Below are positions 3,655-31,091 of a stretch of 41,319 bases of DNA, piece by piece (the stretch's first letter is position 1; each line of letters starts with the position of its first letter). The stretch is from a virus: positions 1-41,319 of the IMG/VR virus record IMGVR_UViG_3300024999_001865; one strand, written 5' to 3'. The translations under genes were made by a program, and so were the position numbers. The notes beneath the pieces were generated by a model. The model saw nothing but the letters and a program-made list of their open reading frames with translations. It was not told the origin of the DNA and did not search any database.

Positions 3655-3906
3655 TTAATTTCCTTGATAACTTCCTGTATGCCATGCTATTTCATTCTCT
3701 GGAATAAACTGATAAATTTCATTTTCTACCCAATCTATAATATAATGAACAGATGATTGTCTATCTGCATTGTTCCAATAATTATAGTGATTGAGAGAAG
3801 TTGCAGAAATATTACTTGTGCTGTGAATTACAATTCCTTTAAGATTGATAAATTTTTCTTTTGGTCTATTCATAGATATAAATTGTTGTTTAATATAATA
3901 TGACAT
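3655..3906 (-). pseudogene. Truncated N-acetylmuramoyl-L-alanine amidase (Amidase_2), N-terminal part only
   Basis: About 83 residues with the start of an Amidase_2 (T7 lysozyme-type) domain: GIVIHSTSN with the first zinc-ligand His, then HYIIDWVENEIYQFIPENEIAWHTGSYQGN, where the protein stops. Complete domains are about 130-150 residues and carry further zinc and catalytic residues (a later His and Cys or equivalent) that are missing here. The start is ATG 3906, with AGGAAGG about 11 nt upstream, rather than the abutting GTG. A terminator follows immediately. It is most likely a remnant of an earlier endolysin, replaced by the Amidase_3 gene at 1511-2407. Catalytic activity is unlikely. Confidence 0.65.
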
Positions 3907-4098
3907 AATTATTTTCACCTTCCTAAATAAAAATAAAAAATTAAAACAAAGGAGATAATCTCATAAATTACCCCAAAACACAATTTATTCACTTTACCTA
4001 AAACCCTGCAACCCTACTCCCACTTCATTCTTAAAACCATAACTTCCAATTAAACACACCTTCTCTGGACTTAAGATATAAAAATATTTATTTATTAA

Positions 4099-4183: not shown

Positions 4184-5170
4184 ATGTCAATTTACAGTGA
4201 ATTGCTCCAACAAGAATTAATAAATAATTTTCCATTGTTCAGAACAGATACAGAAATACATAATTTAGAATCCATACTATCAAGATATAATATTTCTATA
4301 ATTGCTCCATATACTAATGATATTTTAGACTTACAAGAAAAGGTTGGTTTATTTCTAGCAGGAAAGAAATTGGAGGGATTAAGCGATTTAACTCTAAAAG
4401 GATATGAGAGTGAATTAGGAATATTTGCTAAACATGTACAAAAGAAAGCAAATGATATTACAACTAATGATATTAGGATGTATTTAAAAAAATGGAACAA
4501 ACTTAAAATTAGTTCATTATCTAAGAAAATATCAATATTGAAAAGTTTCTTTAGTTGGTTAAGAAATGAAGAGATTATTGAGAAAGATAATGCATTTAGG
4601 ATTAAGACTCCTAAGAAGGAGAAGAGGTTGCCTAAAGGTTTATCAATTGAAGAACTAGAGTTGGTCAGAGAATCATGTACAACACCAAGAATGCGTAGTA
4701 TGTGCGAAATATTCTATGCTACAGGCTGTCGTTTGAGCGAAATACATGATATTAATAGATTTAATGATATTGATTGGGGAGATATGAGCATGATAGTTAT
4801 AGGGAAGGGAGATATACAAAGAAAGGTTTATTTTGGTTATAAGGCTAGATATTATCTACAAAAATATTTAGAATCAAGAGATGATAAGGAACCTGATTTA
4901 TTTATATCTGAACGTGAACCGCATAAGGGATTGTCGTGTAGAGGAATCGAAAGAGAATTTAAAACAATGTTAAAGAACAGTGGATTAAGGAAAGAATTTC
5001 ATCCGCATACTATGAGAAGTACCTTAGCCTCATTACTCCTTGAAAATAATACAAATCTAGCGGTAGTTCAAGAAATACTTGGTCATTCTGACCCTAACAG
5101 CACCCGTATTTATGCTAGAGTTTCTGAGGGGCATATTAATCAAGAATACAAGAAACGTTTTAATCAGTAA
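4184..5170 (+). CDS. int: Tyrosine recombinase / phage integrase
   Basis: 328 residues with a SAM-like N-terminal core-binding domain (about 50-135) and a C-terminal catalytic domain (about 150-325). The catalytic set is complete: R183 in TGCRLSE, K208 in GKGD, H275-x-x-R278 in HPHTMR, H301 in LGHSD and the nucleophile Y310 in STRIYARV. It would catalyse site-specific strand exchange for prophage integration and excision, or for XerC/D-like dimer resolution on a circular replicon. It is encoded opposite to its neighbours, with its own promoter (4099-4127) and a GNRA-loop terminator (5204-5235). The best Shine-Dalgarno (AAAGGA) is unusually far, about 14 nt, from the ATG. Confidence 0.9.
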   Translation: MSIYSELLQQELINNFPLFRTDTEIHNLESILSRYNISIIAPYTNDILDLQEKVGLFLAGKKLEGLSDLTLKGYESELGIFAKHVQKKANDITTNDIRMYLKKWNKLKISSLSKKISILKSFFSWLRNEEIIEKDNAFRIKTPKKEKRLPKGLSIEELELVRESCTTPRMRSMCEIFYATGCRLSEIHDINRFNDIDWGDMSMIVIGKGDIQRKVYFGYKARYYLQKYLESRDDKEPDLFISEREPHKGLSCRGIEREFKTMLKNSGLRKEFHPHTMRSTLASLLLENNTNLAVVQEILGHSDPNSTRIYARVSEGHINQEYKKRFNQ

Positions 5171-8219: not shown

Positions 8220-8462
8220 CTATAACGCTGTTCCAGACCATTTAATTTGAGTTCCACTTGATGCCATTATTTGGATAGAATTGATTAATTCATTCACAAC
8301 AATTACAAAAGAAGTTGTCATAGTATCTGAATTGTTAATCCTAATAGGGATTTGATCTTTTGCTTCAATAGTAATGCCAGAAAGTGGATATTGAAATGTT
8401 ATAATTTCGTTATTAATTACAGTAGTATAAAAATCATTTGAAGATAGAATCATGGTTGCCAA
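8220..8462 (-). CDS. Small virion-associated beta protein (80 aa)
   Basis: 80 residues, nearly all beta strand: FYTTVINNEIITFQYPLSGI, IPIRINNSDTMTTSFVIVVN, then SSGTQIKWSGTAL. The ending resembles that of the 7007-7399 protein (MQVKWQVI). The start TTG 8462 lies about 13 nt after a GAGG Shine-Dalgarno; the downstream ATG (codon 4) is an alternative. It begins the distal fibre block, directly downstream of the terminator of the secreted-protein cassette. No family is recognised; a structural role is inferred from neighbours. Confidence 0.45.
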   Translation of the reverse strand: MATMILSSNDFYTTVINNEIITFQYPLSGITIEAKDQIPIRINNSDTMTTSFVIVVNELINSIQIMASSGTQIKWSGTAL

Positions 8463-8540
8463 TATTTTATTTTCACCTCATTTCTTAAACATAAATCTTA
8501 TGGAAATATTGTTCAAGCAATTATTTATACTTAAACACAA

Positions 8541-8570
8541 CAAAAAGACTCCTGAAATCAGAAGTCTAAA
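8541..8570 (-). terminator. Terminator of the secreted-protein cassette
   Basis: A 9-bp stem (minus-strand AGACTTCTG with CAGGAGTCT) with a 4-nt ATTT loop is followed by TTTTTG. It lies 35 bp after the dockerin-like gene stop, closing a transcription unit opened by the promoter at 10167-10195. Confidence 0.8.
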
Positions 8571-8604
8571 AATAAACCAACTTATAAGTTAATTACTTAT
8601 CCAA

Positions 8605-9273
8605 TCACATCATCTGAAAATCTCCATCCCTTAATCCAACCAAGTATTGCATCAAAACTATTACATTTTTCACACTTGGTTTAAAATAATTAATAGTATC
8701 ATAAGGAAATATAGACCCCATATTTACAACATTAATTTCGCTACTATCTTTAATTCCTGCTAAATATTGTAACCCTCCAACAGCATCACTCAAACCAACC
8801 TCATCACCATCATTCAATATTTTACCTCTGCAAAAACTAACAATCTTAACTTGCTCTAAATTAAAATTAACTTTAACCTCAGTATTATTACCAACTTTTC
8901 CAATTAAACTAATCGGAACAAAACACAATCCATTATCATTTTCATTAATATTGTTTCCATTATCAGAAATTACTAGTTTGCCATTTACATTATCGTCAAT
9001 AAATTCAAATGATCCTAAATTATCAATATCAATTACTTCTCCAATTTTAACATTATAAACATCATAATTTATCTCAATATTGTAATCTGAAATATCATTA
9101 TAGACACTTAAATATAAACCCGTTTTCTCAAACATAACTTTAGTTTCAATATTAAAATTATTCTCCTGAATAACTTCAATATTTGTAACTCTAAAATCGT
9201 TTTCTAGTGCATAAACACTTTTAACATTAAGAAATATTAAAACAATTATCAATACTAAACATATTCTCTTCAT
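8605..9273 (-). CDS. Secreted protein with C-terminal dockerin-like region
   Basis: 222 residues. Residues 1-22 (MKRICLVLIIVLIFLNVKSVYA) form a signal peptide. Residues about 25-150 are beta-rich and acidic, with a cohesin-like appearance (FEFIDDNVNGKLVISDNGNN). Residues about 150-222 contain two helix-like repeats, GDEVGLSDAVGGLQYLAGI and KPSVKNVIVLMQYLVGLRD, resembling a degenerate dockerin or calcium-binding duplicated motif; the canonical DxNxDG loops are only partly kept. It would be exported to the host surface, which is unusual in a phage fibre cluster. It starts 1 bp after the preceding secreted-protein stop, so translation is probably coupled. The dockerin assignment is tentative; the export signal is clear. 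Confidence 0.6.
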   Translation of the reverse strand: MKRICLVLIIVLIFLNVKSVYALENDFRVTNIEVIQENNFNIETKVMFEKTGLYLSVYNDISDYNIEINYDVYNVKIGEVIDIDNLGSFEFIDDNVNGKLVISDNGNNINENDNGLCFVPISLIGKVGNNTEVKVNFNLEQVKIVSFCRGKILNDGDEVGLSDAVGGLQYLAGIKDSSEINVVNMGSIFPYDTINYFKPSVKNVIVLMQYLVGLRDGDFQMM

Positions 9274-9274
9274 A

Positions 9275-10117
9275 TTAATTACTCACATATTGAAAATTAA
9301 TCCACATTGGATTTGTAATATTATTGCCATCTAAATCTTTAATTGAATCTTTGACAATAATGTGATATTGTTTATTTTCATCATATGGTAAATTATACTT
9401 TAAATTCATAGACTTTTTATCATTTGAAATTATAATTGAGTAATCTGTTAATTGTGTAAGATTATAATCATTATTTATACTAAAATCTAAAATCATATTT
9501 CCAGTCGTTTCAAATAATAAAACTGATTCATTGTTAATTGTATTAATATCAGCTTCTCTAGAAAATGAGATTTTAACAATATTTGTTGAATTATTAATTC
9601 CTAATTGATTTTGGCTATACAATTTAAAATTAGAAGGAAGTACATAGAATTTATAATTTGAAAATGATTTTTCTCCCATGTTGTCCAAACTGTCAATTGC
9701 CGTAACTTTGTTAATTGTCCATACTCCAATATCTTCAGAAGCAAAATTCTTTTGAACAACCCATCTGTCTATACTAGTGGATAATTTTATTAAATTTAAT
9801 GTTTGTTCTCCATTAGGAGTTGCACAATTAATAGATACATTCTTGATTGTTGATGTAGTATCCGTTGCATTTACATTAATATAAATAGTAATATCTTCAC
9901 CTACAGTTAAAAAAGAATCTGTTCTATTTCCTAAATACCCATTCATTGAGGAAATAGTTGGTGATTGCGTAGGGGTAGAAGTTTCAGATATTACTTGCAC
10001 ATTGGTGATTTGAATAGGAGAATCATCAGATGCCAATGTTATCGATGTGGTTGATAATAAAAACATGAAGGTTACAATTGAGGTGATTAATTTTTTGATT
10101 TTTAATTTAGATGACAA
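9275..10117 (-). CDS. Secreted protein with Ig-like (Big_5-type) domain
   Basis: 280 residues by the TTG start. A basic N-region plus LITSIVTFMFLLSTTSITLA forms a signal peptide ending near residue 30. Two beta-sandwich regions follow: about 35-165 and about 170-278. The second has the SbsA/Big_5 pattern (IVKISFSREADINTINNESV, NDKKSMNLKYNLPY, HIIVKDSIKDLDGNNI). The best Shine-Dalgarno (GGAGG, 10138-10142) is 8 nt from an in-frame ATA at 10129-10127 and too far (20 nt) from the TTG, so initiation may be non-canonical. It is the first gene of a two-gene cassette with its own promoter and terminator, best read as a moron or lysogenic-conversion cassette. Confidence 0.65.
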   Translation of the reverse strand: MSSKLKIKKLITSIVTFMFLLSTTSITLASDDSPIQITNVQVISETSTPTQSPTISSMNGYLGNRTDSFLTVGEDITIYINVNATDTTSTIKNVSINCATPNGEQTLNLIKLSTSIDRWVVQKNFASEDIGVWTINKVTAIDSLDNMGEKSFSNYKFYVLPSNFKLYSQNQLGINNSTNIVKISFSREADINTINNESVLLFETTGNMILDFSINNDYNLTQLTDYSIIISNDKKSMNLKYNLPYDENKQYHIIVKDSIKDLDGNNITNPMWINFQYVSN

Positions 10118-10166
10118 TTTTAATTTTATATAAAATTCCTCCCCTTACTATTTTTGTATTACACTG

Positions 10167-10195
10167 ATTATATAGCAAGAAGAGGTTTATTTCAA
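10167..10195 (-). promoter_or_regulatory. Promoter of the secreted-protein cassette
   Basis: On the minus strand, TTGAAA (10195-10190) and TATAAT (10172-10167) are separated by exactly 17 bp, about 40 bp upstream of the first secreted-protein start. The rest of the 10118-10338 gap holds no gene. A near-consensus vegetative promoter suggests expression from the prophage state. Confidence 0.75.
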
Positions 10196-10338
10196 TAGAA
10201 ATTGAAGGTGAAAATAATTATATCATATTATATTTATTCAACTTATTTGCCTGTAAATAAGTTCCTCATATAAACAACTATGCCATCTGGCTTATCTCCA
10301 TTGAAATAAATGTAACTTCATATTATTTTAAAGATGGA

Positions 10339-11514
10339 TTACGCAACTATTGATGATATTTCTTCACTTTCTATGTATTGAAATTTATATCCTCCGCAGG
10401 TTTTACTTTGATTTCTTAAACACATATAGATTCCAGAGCTACTGTGTAGATTTAATTCTTTTGCACATCCTTTTTTAGATATCCAAGTTCCAATATACTT
10501 ATCATCCTTGCTATATACTCTAAAAGGCATAATATTTAATTCCTGTAATTTTTTGTCGTTAACTTCATCACAATAAATAAATATATAACCCCTATGTGAA
10601 CGGGTTTTATTTCTTAAGCAATTGCTTATAGTTGATTTTTCTAAATTTAAATCTTTCACACAATCTGCTTGCTTGCTATATTTGGCTACTAACTCTCCTG
10701 TTTTTTCATCATAAACATTGAATAATTTATATTTTAAATGATTCGGGATTTCTTGATTTAGATTATCAGCATATACAAAATAATAATCATGACAAGATCC
10801 ATATACAACCACTAATACTACATGGTAAAATATCTAATTGTCTAGCACATTCCGTTTGATTAGTAAACTGTCCAATATGTTTATAAGTTTTTAAAGAGTA
10901 TACATTAAATTGTTTTGACGAAACTATTGGTGAGTTAATTTTATTTAATATTTCTTGTAAATTTGTTTTTTCTTTCTTATCATGATAAACAAAAATATAA
11001 TTTTTATAGGTAAACATTTTTCTATTTAAACATTTCCGAATCGTACGACTATTTAAATTTAAATCTTCTGCACATAAACTAGCATTTATCCATTTCCCTA
11101 TGAACTCCTCATTTAAAGTATATACACTAAATTCTTTACCTCCTCTGCTGATTGAATGAACTATTCTTTGTTCTCTTGTTCTTTCAAAACTACCATCTCC
11201 ACCCAATGTAGAATTATACCCTTCTTTAAATGTATTAAATTTATTTATGTAGTATATTTCTAATTCCTTTAATTCTTCAATGTTATTTGCATAATCTATA
11301 ATCTCAAAATTTATATTTTTAATACCATATTTTTTTTTATTGCTTTTGTAAAAATACTTCCAATATTCCCACCTACTGTATGCTCCATAATTCTTCTAAT
11401 TAGTTTTCTAGTGGTAATACCTACATATTGCTTACCACTTGGAGAAGTTGCCAAATATACAATAAATTTAGTTGTATCTTTATTTGTGGATACAATATAA
11501 TTATATTTACTCAA
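10339..11514 (-). pseudogene. Frameshifted GIY-YIG homing endonuclease with NUMOD1-type repeats
   Basis: Three adjoining frames make one protein. 11514-11311 has the GIY-YIG start (FIVYLATSPSGKQYVGITTR, with the conserved Arg region RRIMEH). After an A9 run near 11330, the frame continues as YGIKNINFEIIDYANN through GYNSTLGGDGS. NUMOD1-like repeats follow (KEFSVYTLNEEFIGKW, KQFNVYSLKTYKHIGQ, KLFNVYDEKTGELVAK, MPFRVYSKDDKYIGTW), each with a helix-turn-helix that would bind DNA. One extra A in the A9 run restores frame at the first break. The second break, near 10800, seems to be a deletion of about 10 nt inside a repeat. It is probably a decayed free-standing homing endonuclease. Confidence 0.75.
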
Positions 11515-11544
11515 GGAGGCATCAACCTTTCTTTTTTAATAATT

Positions 11545-11576
11545 AAAATAAGCAGAAAATATTTTCTGCTTATTTT
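11545..11576. terminator. Perfect 32-bp palindrome, bidirectional terminator
   Basis: The two 16-bp arms 11545-11560 and 11561-11576 are exact complements and end in A/T tracts on both sides, so either strand yields a hairpin followed by U-rich RNA. It lies just after the CmpB-like gene stop and just upstream of the decayed endonuclease. Confidence 0.75.
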
Positions 11577-11586
11577 CAAATTTGTT

Positions 11587-12739: not shown

Positions 12740-14431
12740 TTAGTTTTGTACTACTGTATTTATTGCATTAGTTAATGTACCGCAAAGGGTTGCATTAGAA
12801 ATATAAGTTGCCACAGTTGTATTATATATTCTCACACATATCGTCGAACCTGCCGACATTTCAACAGTAGTGTCTACTGAAAAATTTATATAGGAACTTG
12901 AATAAGTAGATGCTGTTCCACCAATAGAAGTACCGTTGATATCAGTAACCATCAAAGAGACAGCATAAGATGGGTTGCTAGTCTTTATTTGTCCTTTTAT
13001 TCTAAACATCCCAGAATATACGGTTTTAAATGATTTTACAATAGTTCCAGGTAAACTTGAAGTACTCGCACCTCTCTCAGCAGGAGCAGATAATAATACA
13101 ACATCAGAAGGAGTATATCTTTGAGGTAAAACAATAATATCACCTTCCCATGTAATACTAGGAACACTCACTGTTGGACTTGTATCTGTTATTGCTACTC
13201 GCGTTAATGTCCATTTGATTTTAAGAGATGTATATGTTGAAATACTCAAATCAGATATATCTGCAATAGATGTTATATTAGATTTAAGGACAACATTTGC
13301 GGAACTTAATATATCACAAACAACAGTAGTATTTGTAGGAACTGTTTGAGTCCATTTTGCATTTCCCCATTTTTTAAGTAAACTTGGAGATATAGTTTTT
13401 GTGATTGTGCCTGTTAAAGCAGGAAGTTGTGCTTGGATAGATGTGAAGACATAAACAGTTGTATTATCTGTTGTACCATAATAAAGTCCACCAGTTAAAT
13501 TAATATCTGTGCTAGTATAAGGAAACGCAGACGTTGTAGTGTTTTGTGCTATATTCCATATAGAAATATTATTATCAACAACAATATAATAATCAGTATT
13601 CGCTTGAAAAGGATATTGGACATAAAAAGGAGTTCCTGTAGAAACTGTAGATATATCCATTGTATATAAAACAGTTTTAGCACTACTCCAAACATGTAAA
13701 CGAGAATATCCACTATTAAAAGAACTTAGATTAGCTATTACACCCCATAAAGCGTTATTTACATGAATTTTTACTCCAAATGCTCTATCAAGTCCTGCAT
13801 ATGTACTGGTTGGTGCAGTTAATGTTGCAGTTGTACCAATACCTGAAGTAGATAAATTAGCAACGTTAGAAGTATCTAATATTGTCGAACTATATGTCTC
13901 TGCTCCATTGAATCCATATATTTGCTTATATCTTCCATTGTTTGGATCAATTTGACTATAATCTTCAATATTTAATTTTTTATCTAATTCTACTTTTAAT
14001 CCTGCTGGATGCACTGCTTTTGTAGAGTCTGTTCCTGCAGTTGTTTCAATAGCAGTAGCAAGCTCAACATGCCCTTTTACTGTTTCTGATGAGTCTTTTA
14101 TTATATGTTGATTATAATTAACTATATGAGCATTATAAGTTGATACATGTGAATCAAAGTCAGATGTTTCTACTTTAGCATTAAATTCTTCTGCTGATGG
14201 TATATAGGATTCAAGTGCGTTTGAAATTACTGCTAAAAGACCTTCTTGTCCTTGATTTTCATAAAGCGATCCTAATGTTTGGTATGTAACACCAGAAGTC
14301 AATGAAACATAGGAAACATTGCCAGATTGAGAACGAGGTTTTGTATCATATAATGTTTTCATATAATTTGCTTCTGCTGTGAAATTATCATTTGTACTTG
14401 AATTATTAGGAAGGTTTAATTTTATAGACAT
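12740..14431 (-). CDS. Tail fibre protein with phage_fiber_2 repeat
   Basis: 563 residues. Residues about 95-160 carry a heptad-like His/Asn stretch (DSHVSTYNAHIVNYNQHIIK) followed by VKGHVELATAIETTAGTDST and KAVHPAGLKVELDKKLN, the classic phage tail-fibre repeat (PF03406) that forms trimeric shaft segments. The remainder is beta-rich with two sandwich-like domains (about 180-330 and 440-560). The N-terminus (MSIKLNLPNNSSTNDNFTAE) probably attaches to the baseplate. It is transcribed after the 14480-16150 receptor-binding gene and before the DUF4376-like gene. A host-recognition role is well supported; the receptor is unknown. Confidence 0.8.
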   Translation of the reverse strand: MSIKLNLPNNSSTNDNFTAEANYMKTLYDTKPRSQSGNVSYVSLTSGVTYQTLGSLYENQGQEGLLAVISNALESYIPSAEEFNAKVETSDFDSHVSTYNAHIVNYNQHIIKDSSETVKGHVELATAIETTAGTDSTKAVHPAGLKVELDKKLNIEDYSQIDPNNGRYKQIYGFNGAETYSSTILDTSNVANLSTSGIGTTATLTAPTSTYAGLDRAFGVKIHVNNALWGVIANLSSFNSGYSRLHVWSSAKTVLYTMDISTVSTGTPFYVQYPFQANTDYYIVVDNNISIWNIAQNTTTSAFPYTSTDINLTGGLYYGTTDNTTVYVFTSIQAQLPALTGTITKTISPSLLKKWGNAKWTQTVPTNTTVVCDILSSANVVLKSNITSIADISDLSISTYTSLKIKWTLTRVAITDTSPTVSVPSITWEGDIIVLPQRYTPSDVVLLSAPAERGASTSSLPGTIVKSFKTVYSGMFRIKGQIKTSNPSYAVSLMVTDINGTSIGGTASTYSSSYINFSVDTTVEMSAGSTICVRIYNTTVATYISNATLCGTLTNAINTVVQN

Positions 14432-17709: not shown

Positions 17710-17851
17710 TAAAACTAATAAAGTTTATGTTCTTTTTCTGTTTCATCGCGTCCAATTTTGTATCATTTCTAATACTACTTTTGTTTGATATAACGCTCCA
17801 TAGACTTAAATTCCCGACCAACGAATCGGTATTATTAAACAGTTTTATATC
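17691..17851 (-). ncRNA. Putative omega (reRNA) guide RNA at the 3' end of tnpB
   Basis: TnpB nucleases use an RNA made from the 3' end of their gene and the element end, with a guide taken from flanking DNA. The tnpB-to-end stretch is non-coding and contains hairpin-forming segments (for example AACTGTTT and the CCGATTCGTTGGTCGG arms) followed by conserved-looking purine-rich sequence. The guide would be read from the phage sequence just beyond 17691, inside the leader of the hub gene. The exact RNA boundaries are not determinable by eye. Confidence 0.45.
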
Positions 17852-18994
17852 TTAAACTGCTAATCTACCATATTCTCTTAAATTAATACTTGCATTCTTA
17901 TCTCTATCTAAAATAACTCCACATTCCTTGCAAACATATTCCCTATCTGAAAGTTTTAACCCTTTGTCTATACTTCCGCATCCAGAACACATTTTACTTG
18001 ATGGATAAAATCTATTTGCAATTATTAATTTAACTCCATACCAATTACATTTATACTCAATTTTTACTCTGAAATCATATAGGCATTGTTCTTGAATTGC
18101 CTTTGACAAATGTCTATTCTTCATCATTCCTTGAATATTTAAGTCTTCCAATACTATATACTCTGGTTTGTTTTTCACCAAAGCAGTAGTAATTTGATGA
18201 CTGTAATTTGTACGAATATTTGTTAATCGTTGATGAACACTCTTTATTTTGTCTTCTAGTTTTATAATATTTTTAGTCTTCTTGTAATTTTTCCCTTCTT
18301 TATTATTTTCATATTTTCTTGATACTTGACGTTGAAGTCTTCTAAGTTTCTTTTTAAGTTTTCTTACTGCCTTAGTCTTGTTAATATTCTTAAATGGTTC
18401 ATCAATATTACTAATAATTGCTAAATCTTTAATTCCAAGATCGATTCCAATTGGTTCAGACATTTCTTTCTCAATTGTTAAGTCTCCAACTTCAATTCCT
18501 ACCGATATCCACCAATGTAACCCATCGAATGTTACTCTTGGATTCATATATTTAACATCTTTGCTAAAAGGGATTCTGTCAAATTCAGCTAATTTAACTT
18601 TACCAACTTTTTCAATCTGACAATGTTTTTCTGTGAACTTAATTTTAACATTGTCTTGATAAAAACTAGGTTTACTTCTTTTACGAGTTTTGAATTTAGG
18701 AAATTTACTTAAACCTTTGAAAAACTTTTTATAAGCATCGCAAGCATCTTTAATTGCTTGTTTTGTGATATTGTTAGAATATTTATATAACCATTTAAAC
18801 TCATCAGTTTGTTTTAATTGAGTAAGTTGTTTTCGTATTTCTCCATCATTTAAAAACTTACCAGTTTCTTTATAATATTCCTGTATTTTAGCAATAGCAA
18901 AGTTATAAGCCCATCTACCCGTTCCAGCACAACCAAAAAGATTGGTGTATTGTTTATTATTTGGTTTTAACTGAACTTTAGTTGTCTTTATCAT
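17852..18994 (-). CDS. tnpB: TnpB RNA-guided nuclease (IS607/IS605 type)
   Basis: 380 residues, usual TnpB length. An N-terminal OrfB helix-turn-helix (about 1-110) and beta-barrel region precede the RuvC core. The RuvC catalytic triad is intact: D185 in GIDLGIKD, E283 in VLEDLNIQGM and D363 in ILDRDKNASINL. A zinc finger lies between the last two (C336, C339, C355, C358). It cuts DNA guided by an RNA from its own 3' end and helps the element persist after excision. The start overlaps the tnpA C-terminal remnant by 17 bp in the arrangement normal for IS607. It is intact although its transposase partner is broken. Confidence 0.93.
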   Translation of the reverse strand: MIKTTKVQLKPNNKQYTNLFGCAGTGRWAYNFAIAKIQEYYKETGKFLNDGEIRKQLTQLKQTDEFKWLYKYSNNITKQAIKDACDAYKKFFKGLSKFPKFKTRKRSKPSFYQDNVKIKFTEKHCQIEKVGKVKLAEFDRIPFSKDVKYMNPRVTFDGLHWWISVGIEVGDLTIEKEMSEPIGIDLGIKDLAIISNIDEPFKNINKTKAVRKLKKKLRRLQRQVSRKYENNKEGKNYKKTKNIIKLEDKIKSVHQRLTNIRTNYSHQITTALVKNKPEYIVLEDLNIQGMMKNRHLSKAIQEQCLYDFRVKIEYKCNWYGVKLIIANRFYPSSKMCSGCGSIDKGLKLSDREYVCKECGVILDRDKNASINLREYGRLAV

Positions 18995-23061: not shown

Positions 23062-26000
23062 TTAAAATTGTTGAGTTTTTGTTCTCCTAGATAAACCCTG
23101 CAATTGAGAAATTAAATCATTAGCGGAGTTGGAATTAACCGTGAGATTTTGTATTGTAATTCCACCATTAGAACTACTATTGCCTTTATTAATATTGCTC
23201 ATATTATTTATAAAATTAGGCATTTGTGGCAATTTGATATTACTTAATGAATTAAAAGCTATATTTGGTAAATTATGAATCATGCTCCATAATTTCTTAC
23301 TATCCGTAGAATTAAAAATTGTTTCTGCACTTGATTTTGTTCCATGTAACATTGCCAAACCTGTAGAATCGTTTACTCCACCTGAAGCATATCCAATTGC
23401 TTTATTCCAAGCATCTTGATATTGACCGTGTGGTGCTGTATACCCATCAATATGATTTTGATATGTTCCAGTTGAATTAGGAGAATTAATAGATGTATCA
23501 TTCGAAGATGAATTTCCATTAGACGGACTAGATGTACCACTTACAATAGCATTATTTAATTGTGCATTTGCATCTGCTATTGCTGATAATCGAGCATTCA
23601 ATGATTGTAATTTTGAACTTAAAGATGTAATAGCATTATCTAAATTATTATTATATGTCTTTAATAATCTATCTGATAATACATCCATATTCTTCCACTG
23701 AGTATCAAAATTATTTTTCATGGTTGAAAATGCATCTTCTTGAGATTTAATTGAATCTTGCTCTGCTTTAATTTGATCTTGTAGGAGTTCTTTTTGATGT
23801 TTTACTGCATTATCTTTTTCCCATTTTTGATAATCTGTTTGTGTTTTTGCTAGATTTTCTTGAGCAGACTCTACATTCTCTTGAGCAGATTCTACATTCT
23901 CTTGAGCTTCCTTTACTTTCTGAGGATTAGCTTGCCAAGTCCATTTATCATCAACAAGAATTCTAGTATCTCTTTCATTAGAAACATTATTTAACTCTTT
24001 TAGTGCTTTTGAAAGTTCTAATTGCGATTTTGAAAGTTCCAAATTTGCTTTAGAAATATCTAAGAGTTTTTCTTGTTTGTCTATAGATTCTTGCTCTAAA
24101 TCATTTTTTTCTTCTAAAGCATCAATTTGAGATTGATATCCTTCAATTATAGTTTCATGGGTAGTTTTATAAACATTTAATTTTTCTTCTTCGGCATCTA
24201 AAACAGATTGTGCGATTAATTTTTCTGCATCTATGACTTGTTTTGCTAAATCTTGAGCTGTATTTTGGAGAGATAATTGATAGGAGAGTTGAGATTTTGT
24301 AGCATCTTCTATTGATTTTGTTAATGATTCTTTTGATTCAATTGATAATTTATCACTTGACAATTGAGAATTCATATAATCAATAGATTTTTGTTGAGTA
24401 TCAATTAAATCTTCAGTTATTCTAGTTTGGATTATTAATTCATCACCATATTCTGATGATGTATCGAGGGTGAGTGCCATACGAGATTTTGAGAGTTCAA
24501 GTTGAGTGTTTGATTCATCTATTGATGCTGTAAATGTGTCTATTTTTGCTGATACAATGTCGAAGTTGATTTGGGGAAGGGTGGAGTTGAGATCAGAAAT
24601 GGCATTTGTTGTATCATCTATAGCTTTTTTATTTTCTACCCATGCTTTTCTGAGCTTCTGGATTTTAGTGAATTCTGCTTCCATTGTTTTCTGCTTAATT
24701 GCACTGGAGGCGTTGAATTCAGCAATGTAAGTAGTAGATTGTTCATTGTCATCTGTATACCATCTCCACATTCCTTGAGGAGTTGCTTCATTTATTTTTG
24801 TTTTTTGATCTTCAAGTTGTTGGAGTTGAGTTTCTTGAGATGCAATGAGTTCTGTGGTTTTTGTGAGAGATAATTGATAGTCTTTTTTTGAGTTTGACTG
24901 TTCAATTTCTTTTTGTAGGGAATCATTTTTTGCTTTTGTGAGATTTACTTGAGCAGATGTTTCTTTTATTATTGAATCCGTTGGTTCAATATAAGCAGGA
25001 TCAGTTAGTTCTAGTGCTTTTTTATCACCAATCTCATTGACTGCTGTTTGATTATTCTTACGAGCGTTGAAATCTGAAAGTATAGTTGAGACGTAATTTC
25101 TAGTCTCAAGTGGTGCTATTCCACTAATATCTGCAAATGTTGTTCCACCTGTTTGCTTAAGTGCCTTTTTTACGTTTCCAATTCCCCAGTTGTAACTTGC
25201 TAAAGCGAGTTCTTTGTCATTATTAAATGCAGACATCATTTGAGCAAGATATTTAGAACCCCCTTCAATTGATTGAGCAGGGTCATAGACATTCGATACT
25301 CCTAAGTCTTTTGCTGTTCCAGGCATAAGTTGGGTCAGACCAGATGCACCTGATGCATTATGAGCTTTTGCATTGAATCCTGATTCTTTTTTGATTACTG
25401 CATCGACCAATGTTGCTGATAGGTTGTTTTGTTTTGCACTTTCGCGAATTAGGTCTGCGTATGGACCTGTTACTACTTCTGGGATTTCTTCTTTTTTCTT
25501 AGAAGGATCTTTGTTTAAATCTGGATTTGCTGATGCTATTAGGTCTGAAGGAGTTATTTGGGATGAAACTTCAATAGCTTTCAAAGCATCTGCTAAGGAT
25601 TGGAATTCGTTCATAGTTGATATACTATTTGACAGTAAATCGTGGTTTTTCCATGCATCGTTATTACTATTGGTCGATGCGTTAAGTTTATCTATTGAAA
25701 GTTGTCTAGCTTGCTCTACTGTCCCAATAGATTCTATTTCCTTTATACTAAACCCTAATTTAGCCAATAGTAATTTTTTAGAAGCTTCTAACTCTTGTTT
25801 ATTTTGGTCTAACTTTTTCTTAAAAGCTTCATCATTAGCCTTCATGACTTTTTCAATGGCATCTTTATTAATTGTTAGCAAACCATTTTCTTTGACCATA
25901 TGCTTTGCTAATTCTGGATGTGCTTTAATTAATTTATACAATTCTTCTGTGGTCATTTTATGACCATCATTCATTTTTGCAACAGCGGAGGCTAGGTCTT

Positions 26001-27952
26001 TAGCATTTTCGAGATAGTCTTCAGTTGAACCGTCAACGTCTTCTAATGCTTTGGAGATGTCATATATTTTTTCTTTAGCTTCAGGTGCAACACCACTCAA
26101 TATAAGAAGACCTTCAACAAATGGTTTGATAATATCCATAGACATAGTTGGATTAGCTCTTGAAATAGCAGTTATTAAATTGTTGATTGCGTCTTGATGT
26201 ATTTTTGTAGCTTCGGAAGCTTTAATACTGCCCTTTTGAAGACCAGTTAGCGAAGTATTCCATTCGTCCATAATTGGTTTAATGTTTGCGTCTGTTTTAA
26301 AAGTATTAAACATCTGAGATAAAACTTGTGATGGAACTTTACCACTTTCATTTATTTCAGATATTATTCCCATATATGATTTTGAGAAATTACTTAAAGA
26401 ATTAGAAGATAAATTCAAAGATTCTAGTTCTGTTTGAGTGACTGCTTTTAATCCACTACTCATTTCAGAATTTGCTTTTAATATCTCACCTTGAACGGTA
26501 GCAATATCACCTTTGATTTTATTAATATCTATATCGAATCCTGCTACTTTTGATAACTTTTCATCTGGTGTATAGGTGTTATTTGGGCCTAATACATTAG
26601 TTCTGACTTGTTCTTTTTTAGCCAAATCATCTTTTAGATCATTTAACTTATTTTGCTTTTCAATTATATCATCCATTTGAGAAGATTCATTCTTATAGAA
26701 ATCACTAACTAATTTTTGTTTATTGATTTCTAATTCTTCTCTTTTTAAGTCTAAATATTCACGAAGACTATCCGCAGAACCTAATATTGCCTTACCTTCT
26801 GAGTCAAAACCTTCTACAGATTGAGGTAAGAGCGAAGATAATTTTTCAGTTGCCTCCGATAGTTTTTGAGTCTCTTCTGTAGTTTTATTTTTCTTAGTAG
26901 ATAGTTCATCGTATGTGGATATTAAAGTTTCTGATTGTGTTATTTCAGAAGATAGTGTTGATATGTTATTTTTAATACTATCAAAAGCATCTTTTGCTTT
27001 TTCTTTAGCATGAATCCAAGAATCTGCAAAACTCATTACTTTACTAATGACAAACATAAGTGCAACCGATAATCCTAACGTGGCAACCGCCTGAAACGTA
27101 GCCATAGCAACCCTTGTTGCAACCGCAGATGATGCTAATGATCTCATTGCATTACTAATTCCTGTAATAGCAATACCTAATCCATTTGCCCATCCAGTTC
27201 TTCCCATTGCAGTTTGTTGTACAATAGCCAAACGTAGATTTGTTATGTACCCCATAACTGAAACACTTGCCATTTGGAAACCAACAACGAATGGATTTAC
27301 TCTCCATGTATTTGCGAGGCCACTAAATTGTCTCATAACTATTGCCGTTTCCATTACAGATGTTTTAAACGCTAACATTGGAGCAATTAAGAATGACCTA
27401 CTCATAAAACCTTGGAATTTAGTAGAAAATAATGATGCCGTTAAAACAACTGTTGCCAATATGGTTGGAATTCCACCCATCACATTAGCAAAACTTGCGA
27501 AGCCTGATATTACGATTGTTAAACCTTTTACTAAGTTTTTCCACGTATCTGTATTTATTGAATTTAAATAAAATTTCTCCCAAGATGCGGTTAGTCGTGA
27601 TACGGAGGCAGACAAACTGTCATTATAAATAGCCTGTTTTTGTGCTGTTACGCCTTCACTCTCTTGTGCAGCAGTAGTATTTTGTAAAACTTTGTCGTAA
27701 TTTGTCATAAGAGAAATAAATGCATTTCTTCTATACATACCAGCAGCAGCAGTTGCAATAGATTGACGTTCCACATCATTTAAAATCTTCCATTTTTCGC
27801 TTAATTCCGACAAAACTTCTCCCATTGGTCGAATCGTGTCGGAAGATGATTTAATTGCTACTCCAATGGCGTTAAATTTCTTTTCGATACCTTTAAATTC
27901 TTCTGGATTTGATTCTTCTCCTACATTAGATATTCGTGAAATTACGGTTCTT
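23062..27952 (-). CDS. Tape measure protein, exon 2 (with internal lytic transglycosylase domain)
   Basis: Exon 2 starts at 27952 with the last base of a split Leu codon (TT|A) and gives RTVISRISNVGEESNPEEFK before the internal Met at 27825. The whole spliced protein is about 2152 residues (exon 1 gives 522 full codons). Two hydrophobic stretches near joined residues 670-705 and 805-830 are typical tape measure membrane segments. Residues about 1357-1490 form a soluble lytic transglycosylase domain (catalytic Glu in IKKESGFNAKAH, then GLTQLMPGTAKDLG and LALASYNWGIGNVKKAL) to open peptidoglycan during DNA entry. Long coiled coils follow to about 1980. A Gly/Ser/Asn-rich tail ends the protein. 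Confidence 0.88.
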
Positions 27953-28202: not shown

Positions 28203-29237
28203 TTAGGAAATTAATTTATTTATTACTTCATTATACTCACTTTTTGTGTATTTTTTAAATGTATAGATGTTTTTATAAAATTTATTGTTGTTGCAATTTC
28301 TATATATCGCATCACTGGCAGAACTACTAGATATAGTTATTCCTTTTTCTACAAGCCAATTGGCACATTCATTTAAAGAAGAATGTGTAATTATTAATTT
28401 ATTGTTCCTATCATATACTTCAATAACAGAAGAATTAGAAAATGATTTTTTATTTACATCGTTTACTATAAAATTAATAAATTGTCCTTGATTAGACATA
28501 ATTTCATTAAATTCATCTTTATTAATAGTGTAGAATAATAATCCTTTATAGTTTTTATCCTTATCAATATTGGTACGAATTGCTTTCTTGCCTCCATTGT
28601 GATTTTTAATTAAACCAATTCCAGTTAACCACTCTCCACACAGAGATAAAGACTCGGAACAATTTATTATATTATTGTTTGTATCTTTTACTAGAATGCA
28701 TTTAGAGTTATATCTGTTTAATCCTTTATTCTTATCCTTGACAGAACCAGAATTTCTTAATTGAAATCCAAACTTTCTTAAAACTCTACCAATAATAACA
28801 TCACTTACTTTGAAATATTTAGAAATCTCATAAGATGATTGACCTTTGTTTGTATACATATCAATAATTTCATCTTTATAATCTTCTATGTCAAACCCAT
28901 GAGATTCCATTCTATTTCTTTTAGTTTCTTCTTCAGAAGGTTTATAACCACTAACTCCTTCCCCTCCATCAGTCATATTGCATAAACTAAATCCATCTAC
29001 AAATCTGTATTCATTTATATACCAACATTCGTATTCAAATGCCTCGTTTTCAGATAAATTTTCTTGTAAAATATGCACTACTGTTTTAGTTTTATTATAT
29101 ATATTCTTGAAATATTTGCTTCTTCCTATAGTTTTGCACCATCTATCATTTTTACCTTTTCCTACATAGAATGGTTCATTAGAATCTAACCTAATCCATT
29201 CATAAACATAATATATATTATTATTGTCTATTATAAT
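28203..29237 (-). CDS. Intron-encoded GIY-YIG homing endonuclease
   Basis: The GIY-YIG core begins YVYEWIRLDSNEPFYVGKGK (about residues 10-30) with the conserved Arg region (NDRWCK) and continues ENEAFEYECWYINEY with the Glu. A recombinase-like helix-turn-helix (YEISKYFKVSDVIIGRVLRK) and two NUMOD1-like repeats (SKCILVKDTNNNIINCSESL and SSVIEVYDRNNKLIITHSSL) complete the DNA-binding part. There is no ATG, GTG or TTG before the GIY motif. An in-frame GTG at 29078 would remove the YVY and FYVG motifs. AGGAGG (29252-29257) precedes a 13-bp tandem duplication, and in-frame ATA/ATT codons are the only possible starts. The coordinates given use ATT at 29237. It lies inside the intron. Confidence 0.75.
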   Translation of the reverse strand: MIIDNNNIYYVYEWIRLDSNEPFYVGKGKNDRWCKTIGRSKYFKNIYNKTKTVVHILQENLSENEAFEYECWYINEYRFVDGFSLCNMTDGGEGVSGYKPSEEETKRNRMESHGFDIEDYKDEIIDMYTNKGQSSYEISKYFKVSDVIIGRVLRKFGFQLRNSGSVKDKNKGLNRYNSKCILVKDTNNNIINCSESLSLCGEWLTGIGLIKNHNGGKKAIRTNIDKDKNYKGLLFYTINKDEFNEIMSNQGQFINFIVNDVNKKSFSNSSVIEVYDRNNKLIITHSSLNECANWLVEKGITISSSSASDAIYRNCNNNKFYKNIYTFKKYTKSEYNEVINKLIS

Positions 29238-29320: not shown

Positions 29321-29523
29321 CAATGGAATGATCAGTCCCATCTATCTCTTTGTAAAAATTATCAATATTAAGTATTTATCAAATTTAATCAATATAAGTT
29401 CGCCCCTGTCGTCTCAACCACGAGACTTCCAAGTTATCTGTAATATTCGCCACAAATATTACAACAATCAGAGAGAATTTGTTAAGGTGGTTTATGAATT
29501 ATGCCACCAGAGCACCAAAAAAT

Positions 29524-31091
29524 AATGCATTGGCGTTTTCTGAGCCGCTACGTCTAGTGACCTCTATCATGGTGGACAGGATGCCAGTCGTAGTCGAAAT
29601 ATCCAACCCTGCGTCTTTTGCCACACTACCAACAGTTCTTAATCCGCTGGAAATCTCAGCAACACCTTTAGGAAAGTCTAATTGCAACATTCGTGCTGCA
29701 CCAAGAATAGAATCAGTAACTCCAGTTATTTCATTAGCAGTTAAACGATATTGGGTCATTACCCCCATTAACTCATCACTGGTCTGCTCAATTCCCTGTC
29801 CAGTGATGGAACTAAGAGTCACCGCACTTCGACTCTTAGTTAAAACCTCTTCAATTGTAGAGGTGTACGTCCCGAAGACAGCTATGGCTTTCATTACTGT
29901 ATCTGTTGTTGCTCCCATTTCAGTAGCAAAAGCATTAGCAGTATTTGTTATTTCACTAAAAACTAAATTAGTATCAGACATTTCCAACTGTAAATTTGTG
30001 AATAATTTTGATTGCCCAGACATAAATTCAAATGCCTCTTGTAATTTATGGAGGCTATTCATCACCAAAGTCGAGGCTACTATCCATAGCGGGAAACGTT
30101 GCAATGCGATGGAAAAACTTTCTCCTAGTCCAATTTGTCTATTAGCTAAATTACCAGTAGATGTACTTAATGAATCCATTTGACCTCTAAGCATATTGTA
30201 ATTACCAGAAACACTCATGCTTTGAGTTTCATTTAACTTGTAAGTTTGAGTTACCTGTTGCATTCCTGTACTTAAAGTTCTCAATTTAGCATTTAATAAT
30301 TCTAAATCAGGTATTAATTTTGCAGTTTTAAAATCAATAGGATTGCTACCAGATTGTTGTTTAAGAATATTAAATTGAGTAGACACATTTTTTAAATCAG
30401 AAAAAGTTCTTTGTGCTATTGCGGTTGACTGATTAAGCAAATCTGGGACTTTGGTACTTGAGCCAATTTGTTGAAATGACCTACTCGCTTCATCAAATTG
30501 ATATTTAAGTCTAATGGTTTCATTTTGTGCATTTTTTAATACAGCAATTAATTTACCTGCTTGATCATAATCATAACTAATTAAAGTATTGCTTTTGTAT
30601 TGACCAGAAGCAGTTAAACTATCAGCAAAAGTCTTAGCCTGTGCTAGTGACCCAGTTCCAGGAGTTGCAACACTGGTTTGACCTTGAACTTGAACCCTAA
30701 TTAATGGCCTTAATCCTTCTATTTGTTGCTTTAATTTTGCAATTTCAGAAGGAGGAACAAATAGAGTTAAATTAATTCGTTTTCCATCAATTTTAGATGT
30801 ATCAAGTTTTAAATTACCTAATTTAAAAGAAATAGATTCTATTTTACTTTTTATTTCTTTCGTTGCATTTGAAGGAAGTTTTACATTATTTATTGATACA
30901 TTCTCTAATTTAATTGAGAGTTTATCCAAATTCGTTTTTAAAGCATTTAATGCACCAGAATCTATTTTTATTTTATCAATTGTAATTGGATTTGCTTTTA
31001 CAAAATTATTTAATTTATCAATTGTAGCTTTTATTTCTGATTGGTCGTATTTTATTATTAATTTAGCACCAACAGTATATGTAGTACCCAT
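29524..31091 (-). CDS. Tape measure protein, exon 1
   Basis: From ATG 31091 (MGTTYTVGAKLIIKYDQSEI) the frame runs 522 full codons and then TT at the splice site. Without splicing it would add FFGALVA and stop. The N-terminus has long amphipathic helices (KATIDKLNNFVKANPITIDK; ALKTNLDKLSIKLENVSINN). Residues about 390-522 hold the conserved tape measure core (NTANAFATEMGATTDTVMKA, LMGVMTQYRLTANEITGVTD, TTGILSTMIEVTRRSGSENANAL), in which the intron sits. The tape measure sets tail length and acts during DNA injection. It follows the gp10-like protein gene by 14 bp. Confidence 0.88.

Follow-up and report, generated by a model that had tools for sequence, protein, structure and literature searches.

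The pair of genes in the tail-fibre region

The DNA analysed here (the window) is a virus record of 41,319 bases, the minus strand of which bears tail and lysis genes; the host is a low-GC, probably clostridial, bacterium. A pair of genes, ORF B and ORF A, lies in the tail-fibre cluster. The features of the pair and of its surroundings are the following:

10195-10167, minus strand: sigma-A-type promoter TTGAAA-17-TATAAT, 11/12 consensus bases
10144-10138, minus strand: Shine-Dalgarno sequence GGGGAGG of ORF B, from the sequence
10117-9275, minus strand: ORF B, 280 aa, TTG start
9273-8605, minus strand: ORF A, 222 aa, ATG start
8567-8546, minus strand: intrinsic terminator closing the unit, 9-bp stem followed by TTTT
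8463-11586: insert of 3,124 bp between the 80-aa gene and the CmpB-like gene
10339-10812, minus strand: NUMOD-type homing-endonuclease fragment in the insert (domain search)
10787-11206, minus strand: second NUMOD1 fragment in the insert (domain search)
11311-11514, minus strand: short GIY-YIG-like fragment of 67 aa in the insert (by eye)
11545-11576: hairpin of 14 bp after the CmpB-like gene; the scan scored it as terminator-like for the plus strand, and on the minus strand it has just a short T-run
8220-8462, minus strand: 80-aa gene downstream of the insert, kept in relatives at 75-85% identity
11587-12102, minus strand: CmpB-like membrane gene upstream of the insert, kept in relatives at 26-32%

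The original prediction described a closed, autonomous unit made of a near-consensus promoter, two genes with a 1-bp gap and a strong terminator, and each of these elements was confirmed. The promoter has the predicted 17-bp spacing; when the 221-nt gap upstream was dinucleotide-shuffled, 30/2000 sequences reached its score of 11. Taken together, promoter-like sites were at chance level in the 10 kb of AT-rich sequence scanned (70 found, 71.3 expected), so the promoter call rests on its score and its position. For the terminator (−11.7 kcal/mol, z −3.3), none of 1000 gap shuffles produced an equal. As predicted, 1 bp separates ORF B from ORF A, and both are coding-like in frame, with every other frame scoring worse. 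The true start codon of ORF B is uncertain: the TTG (10117) sits 20 nt beyond the Shine-Dalgarno sequence, and an in-frame ATA at 10129-10127 has the more suitable spacing.

The pair sits in an insert missing from relatives

Related contigs were located through a tail protein, which led to L002, and through the 80-aa gene, which led to five contigs, one of them (L007) being the L002 contig. In those long enough to show it, the 80-aa gene lies 45-112 bp from the CmpB-like gene, versus 3,124 bp in the window. The site is empty in all four informative contigs (L003, L004, L005, and L007) of the five found; L006 begins too near the gene to be informative. Because L004 and L005 resemble a single phage and L002 shares an identical CmpB-like protein with L004, the empty-site contigs represent two to three lineages, not four. 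ORF A, ORF B and Big_5 had no match in the related records, which may themselves be fragments. The relatives without the insert therefore indicate an acquired insert, in which the pair lies beside homing-endonuclease remnants; this strengthens the reading as an autonomous cassette. The GC content of the insert (25.7%, versus 29.6% for the window) does not set it apart, since some neighbouring genes are equally low.

Both absence from the same place in close relatives and possession of an own promoter and terminator, the latter at sequence level, are traits by which morons are recognised. Judged by this arrangement, the pair is an accessory cassette (moron) rather than part of the virion-gene block. 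Moron-type extra phage genes usually alter the infected cell, and their usual setting is lysogeny. The prophage state assumed in the original prediction is only a possibility: the window has an integrase gene at 4184-5170, for which only one of five related records gave a match, a weak one.

Other features of the window were noted. The amidase-like gene at 3655-3918, which the integrase gene adjoins, is shortened to 87 aa, versus 223 aa in L003 and L007, with 88-89% identity to these across its first 83 residues. The tape-measure gene is apparently split into 29499-31091 (PhageMin_Tail) and 23062-27825 (SLT), with a homing-endonuclease-like ORF (28203-29078) between the two parts; no group I intron was found (Rfam, gathering threshold). 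A RAGATH-18 RNA (17735-17804, 69.6 bits) lies on the minus strand inside the tail operon, directly 3' of a TnpB-like gene on the same strand (17852-18994).

ORF B has an SbsA-type Ig-like domain

The original prediction assigned cohesin/dockerin-like and SbsA-type Ig-like domains to the pair and took these to be host surface traits. Searches for the three families recovered Big_5 in ORF B and neither cohesin nor dockerin in ORF A. The Big_5 domain (PF13205, SbsA-type Ig-like) spans residues 177-275 of ORF B and scores 27.2 bits against a curated Pfam cut-off of 23.6, rising to 31.5 bits when the C-terminal half is searched alone. The N-terminal half is predicted, with low confidence, to be all-beta. 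Among 391 genomes, four gave matches to ORF B at E ≤0.001, in five places and at the domain level only. These matches fall in clostridial secreted or wall proteins, although at G231 the similarity is largely confined to the signal region of a different kind of protein. They include a 270-aa clostridial secreted protein that combines a cohesin (54.7 bits) with Big_5 (L077, 991-1800). The Big_5 domain of ORF B is thus of the kind found in clostridial secreted proteins, which agrees with the proposed host-type trait. The single-sequence AlphaFold model of ORF B is of low confidence (pLDDT 47); its Foldseek matches, which were given little weight, are weak and Ig-like (best PDB E 1.6e-3, best viral E 2.7e-4).

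A cohesin or dockerin label for ORF A is not supported

ORF A reached the cut-off of no family in domain searches. Pfam gave no match to cohesin (PF00963) at E up to 10 and none to dockerin (PF00404). Profiles of our own were built from 25/30 cohesin loci and 28/30 dockerin loci, after dropping those cut by contig ends or otherwise unclean; in a second cohesin profile, four cellulosomal cohesins were removed and L077 was added. Against the cohesin profile, 5/2000 shuffles of ORF A scored as well without composition correction and 56/2000 with it, which makes the cohesin likeness of its middle region suggestive at best.

Type I dockerins have two calcium-loop repeats, DxNxDG. Canonical dockerin calcium loops are missing from ORF A by eye, and with the dockerin profile 106/2000 and 100/2000 shuffles were as good without and with composition correction, respectively. 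The C terminus has a weak QYLxG-type double repeat (QYLAGIKD/QYLVGLRD) that was equalled in 3/2000 shuffles, with the split picked after looking; it may at best be called dockerin-like. A dockerin identity of ORF A is not supported, given the lack of a Pfam match and own-profile scores that are common among shuffles.

Comparisons with whole proteins gave a similar outcome. Alignment of ORF A with the 227-aa cohesin-dockerin ORF of G049 is at chance (683/2000 shuffles as good). In the 391 genomes its matches are marginal (28/391 at E ≤0.1, best 7.5e-4) and at chance level, with no chromosomal homologue among them; by eye, none of eight loci inspected among the 30 matched places listed holds a recognisable cohesin or dockerin protein. 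The single-sequence AlphaFold model reached a pLDDT of 31. The cohesin/dockerin-like label given to ORF A was therefore not borne out, as Pfam finds neither domain and our own tests range from suggestive to null.

Export, anchoring, and homologues

Signal-peptide likeness was judged by a simple rule of hydropathy and positive charge. Of 45 window genes tested, three encode proteins with a strongly hydrophobic N terminus; ORFs A and B are the only two of these free of a later membrane segment. As the original prediction had it, both thus have signal-peptide-like N termini and look exported. No LPXTG-like motif, lipobox, CW_binding_2 domain or membrane anchor was found in either protein, nor any carbohydrate-binding or wall-anchoring domain. 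Since neither has an anchor motif, retention of either one at the surface is a guess.

Virion-structural folds, which the original prediction named as one finding that would count against it, did not appear: domain searches returned no virion-structural family and no PHROGs family for either protein. Relatives of the two were found in no phages, viral contigs or plasmids, and none of ORF A in genome contigs. Without a whole-protein homologue, no conserved function can be read for either.

Related large phages encode a wall-binding secreted protein

Two relatives, G002 and G003, lie on virus records of 230,300 and 227,247 bases. Both ends of G002 were examined; they hold no tRNA, and their genes are phage-like by eye. 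The size of these records and the phage-like ends of G002 suggest that the window is possibly just a piece of a large phage genome.

Both G002 and G003, two of the six records searched, encode a secreted protein of 543 aa that has three CW_binding_2 domains. In G002 its gene (L091, 7259-8890) is among tail-side genes, between homologues of tail genes, with a terminator after it. The same protein occurred in six virus contigs of the scan, all 100% identical. That large relatives have a further secreted protein, one of cell-wall-binding type, strengthens the reading of the pair as a cassette for exported proteins. Among named phages, five of the eight records matching CW_binding_2-type proteins are Clostridioides or Peptoclostridium phages, and in all three C. 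difficile phage records inspected the gene is in or near the lysis region (endolysin). Two further observations were made at L091: terminators there and in the window look alike by eye, and a lipoprotein-like ORF (12751-13242; LSGC lipobox by eye) is found just upstream of tail genes.

Proposed role of the pair

We consider it about an even bet (probability of roughly 0.5) that the pair is a moron, acquired into the tail-fibre genes of a phage of low-GC, probably clostridial, bacteria, and that its secreted proteins modify the host envelope. The infected cell would make both proteins from the cassette's own promoter, with transcription that probably does not depend on the late operon; the latter would resume beyond the terminator through read-through or another promoter. 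Both proteins would be exported by the Sec route through their N-terminal signal peptides. Outside the membrane they would serve as binding modules without enzymatic activity, an Ig-like one in ORF B and a beta one, with a possible cohesin/dockerin likeness, in ORF A; their partners might be each other or the host wall. Most probably the benefit would be a changed envelope that makes adsorption or DNA entry harder for competing phages, so that the pair possibly confers superinfection exclusion. This reading draws on an analogy, by role and not by family, with CwpV, a cell-wall protein of C. difficile with which phages adsorb and DNA entry is stopped (PMC4737114).

Among possible benefits, a changed envelope ranks first and host adhesion next, with a virion role less likely. 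The pair could be host adhesion or nutrition genes that aid attachment to surfaces or polysaccharides and have no anti-phage role. Big_5 and cohesin do co-occur in a clostridial secreted protein (L077), and cohesin and dockerin are above cut-off in 22/60 and 27/60 genomes of Clostridia, respectively. What makes this explanation doubtful is that neither protein has a carbohydrate-binding or wall-anchoring domain, that ORF A is without a chromosomal homologue among the 391 genomes and that ORF B has domain-level matches only. The adjoining NUMOD and GIY-YIG-like fragments, together with the single occurrence of the pair and its lack of homologues, would also fit passenger genes, that is, an unselected host fragment brought in with the homing-endonuclease remnants. 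We regard this as quite unlikely: neither frame is interrupted, both look coding, and the promoter, ribosome site and terminator are all preserved.

The position of the pair among fibre genes could point to accessory virion proteins that decorate the tail or fibre with Ig-like domains. Phage tails commonly bear such domains, and phage Ig-like and baseplate proteins are among the weak structural hits obtained with the low-confidence model of ORF B. We regard such a role as quite unlikely, given the signal-peptide-like N termini, the own promoter and terminator, the lack of a PHROGs family, a Big_5 domain of the type of clostridial secreted proteins and the absence of the pair from relatives that keep the neighbouring tail genes. 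It is very improbable that the unanchored, Ig-like ORF B protein and a degenerate cohesin/dockerin-like ORF A protein assemble extracellularly by cellulosome-type pairing into a coat that blocks competing phages, as one of a changing series of cassettes in these large phages of clostridial-type hosts.

If the preferred reading, a change of the envelope, is true, a secreted, unanchored protein of conversion or exclusion would be added to those known in phages of Clostridia. It would also suggest that large phages of anaerobes swap cassettes of extracellular proteins at tail-side sites.

Comparison with known systems

The unit resembles phage morons and lysogenic-conversion genes (PMC6469090, PMC7067206) in being acquired, having its own promoter and terminator, lying outside the virion block and being absent from relatives. 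It differs from them in being a secreted two-gene pair without homologues. Among the papers listed, no title or abstract described a phage-borne secreted cohesin/Big_5 pair.

With CwpV (PMC4737114) the pair shares only the proposed role, an extracellular hindrance of phage DNA entry. CwpV is host encoded, wall bound and phase variable and shows no sequence relation to ORF A or ORF B, which lack CW_binding_2. The Ltp-type superinfection-exclusion proteins (PMC3952083) are likewise phage encoded and extracellular; they are, however, lipoproteins, whereas ORFs A and B have no lipobox. The small clostridial cohesin-dockerin (G049) and cohesin-Big_5 (L077) proteins are also small and secreted, and Big_5 is common to L077 and ORF B. 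Their domain order was suspected for ORF A too, but ORF A gives no match to either the cohesin or the dockerin profile. The CW_binding_2 proteins of CD2301, phiCDKH02, LIBA6276, G002 and G003 bear a wall-binding domain, in contrast with ORFs A and B, which have none. They share with the pair that they are host-type secreted proteins encoded by late or tail-side genes in phages of Clostridia.
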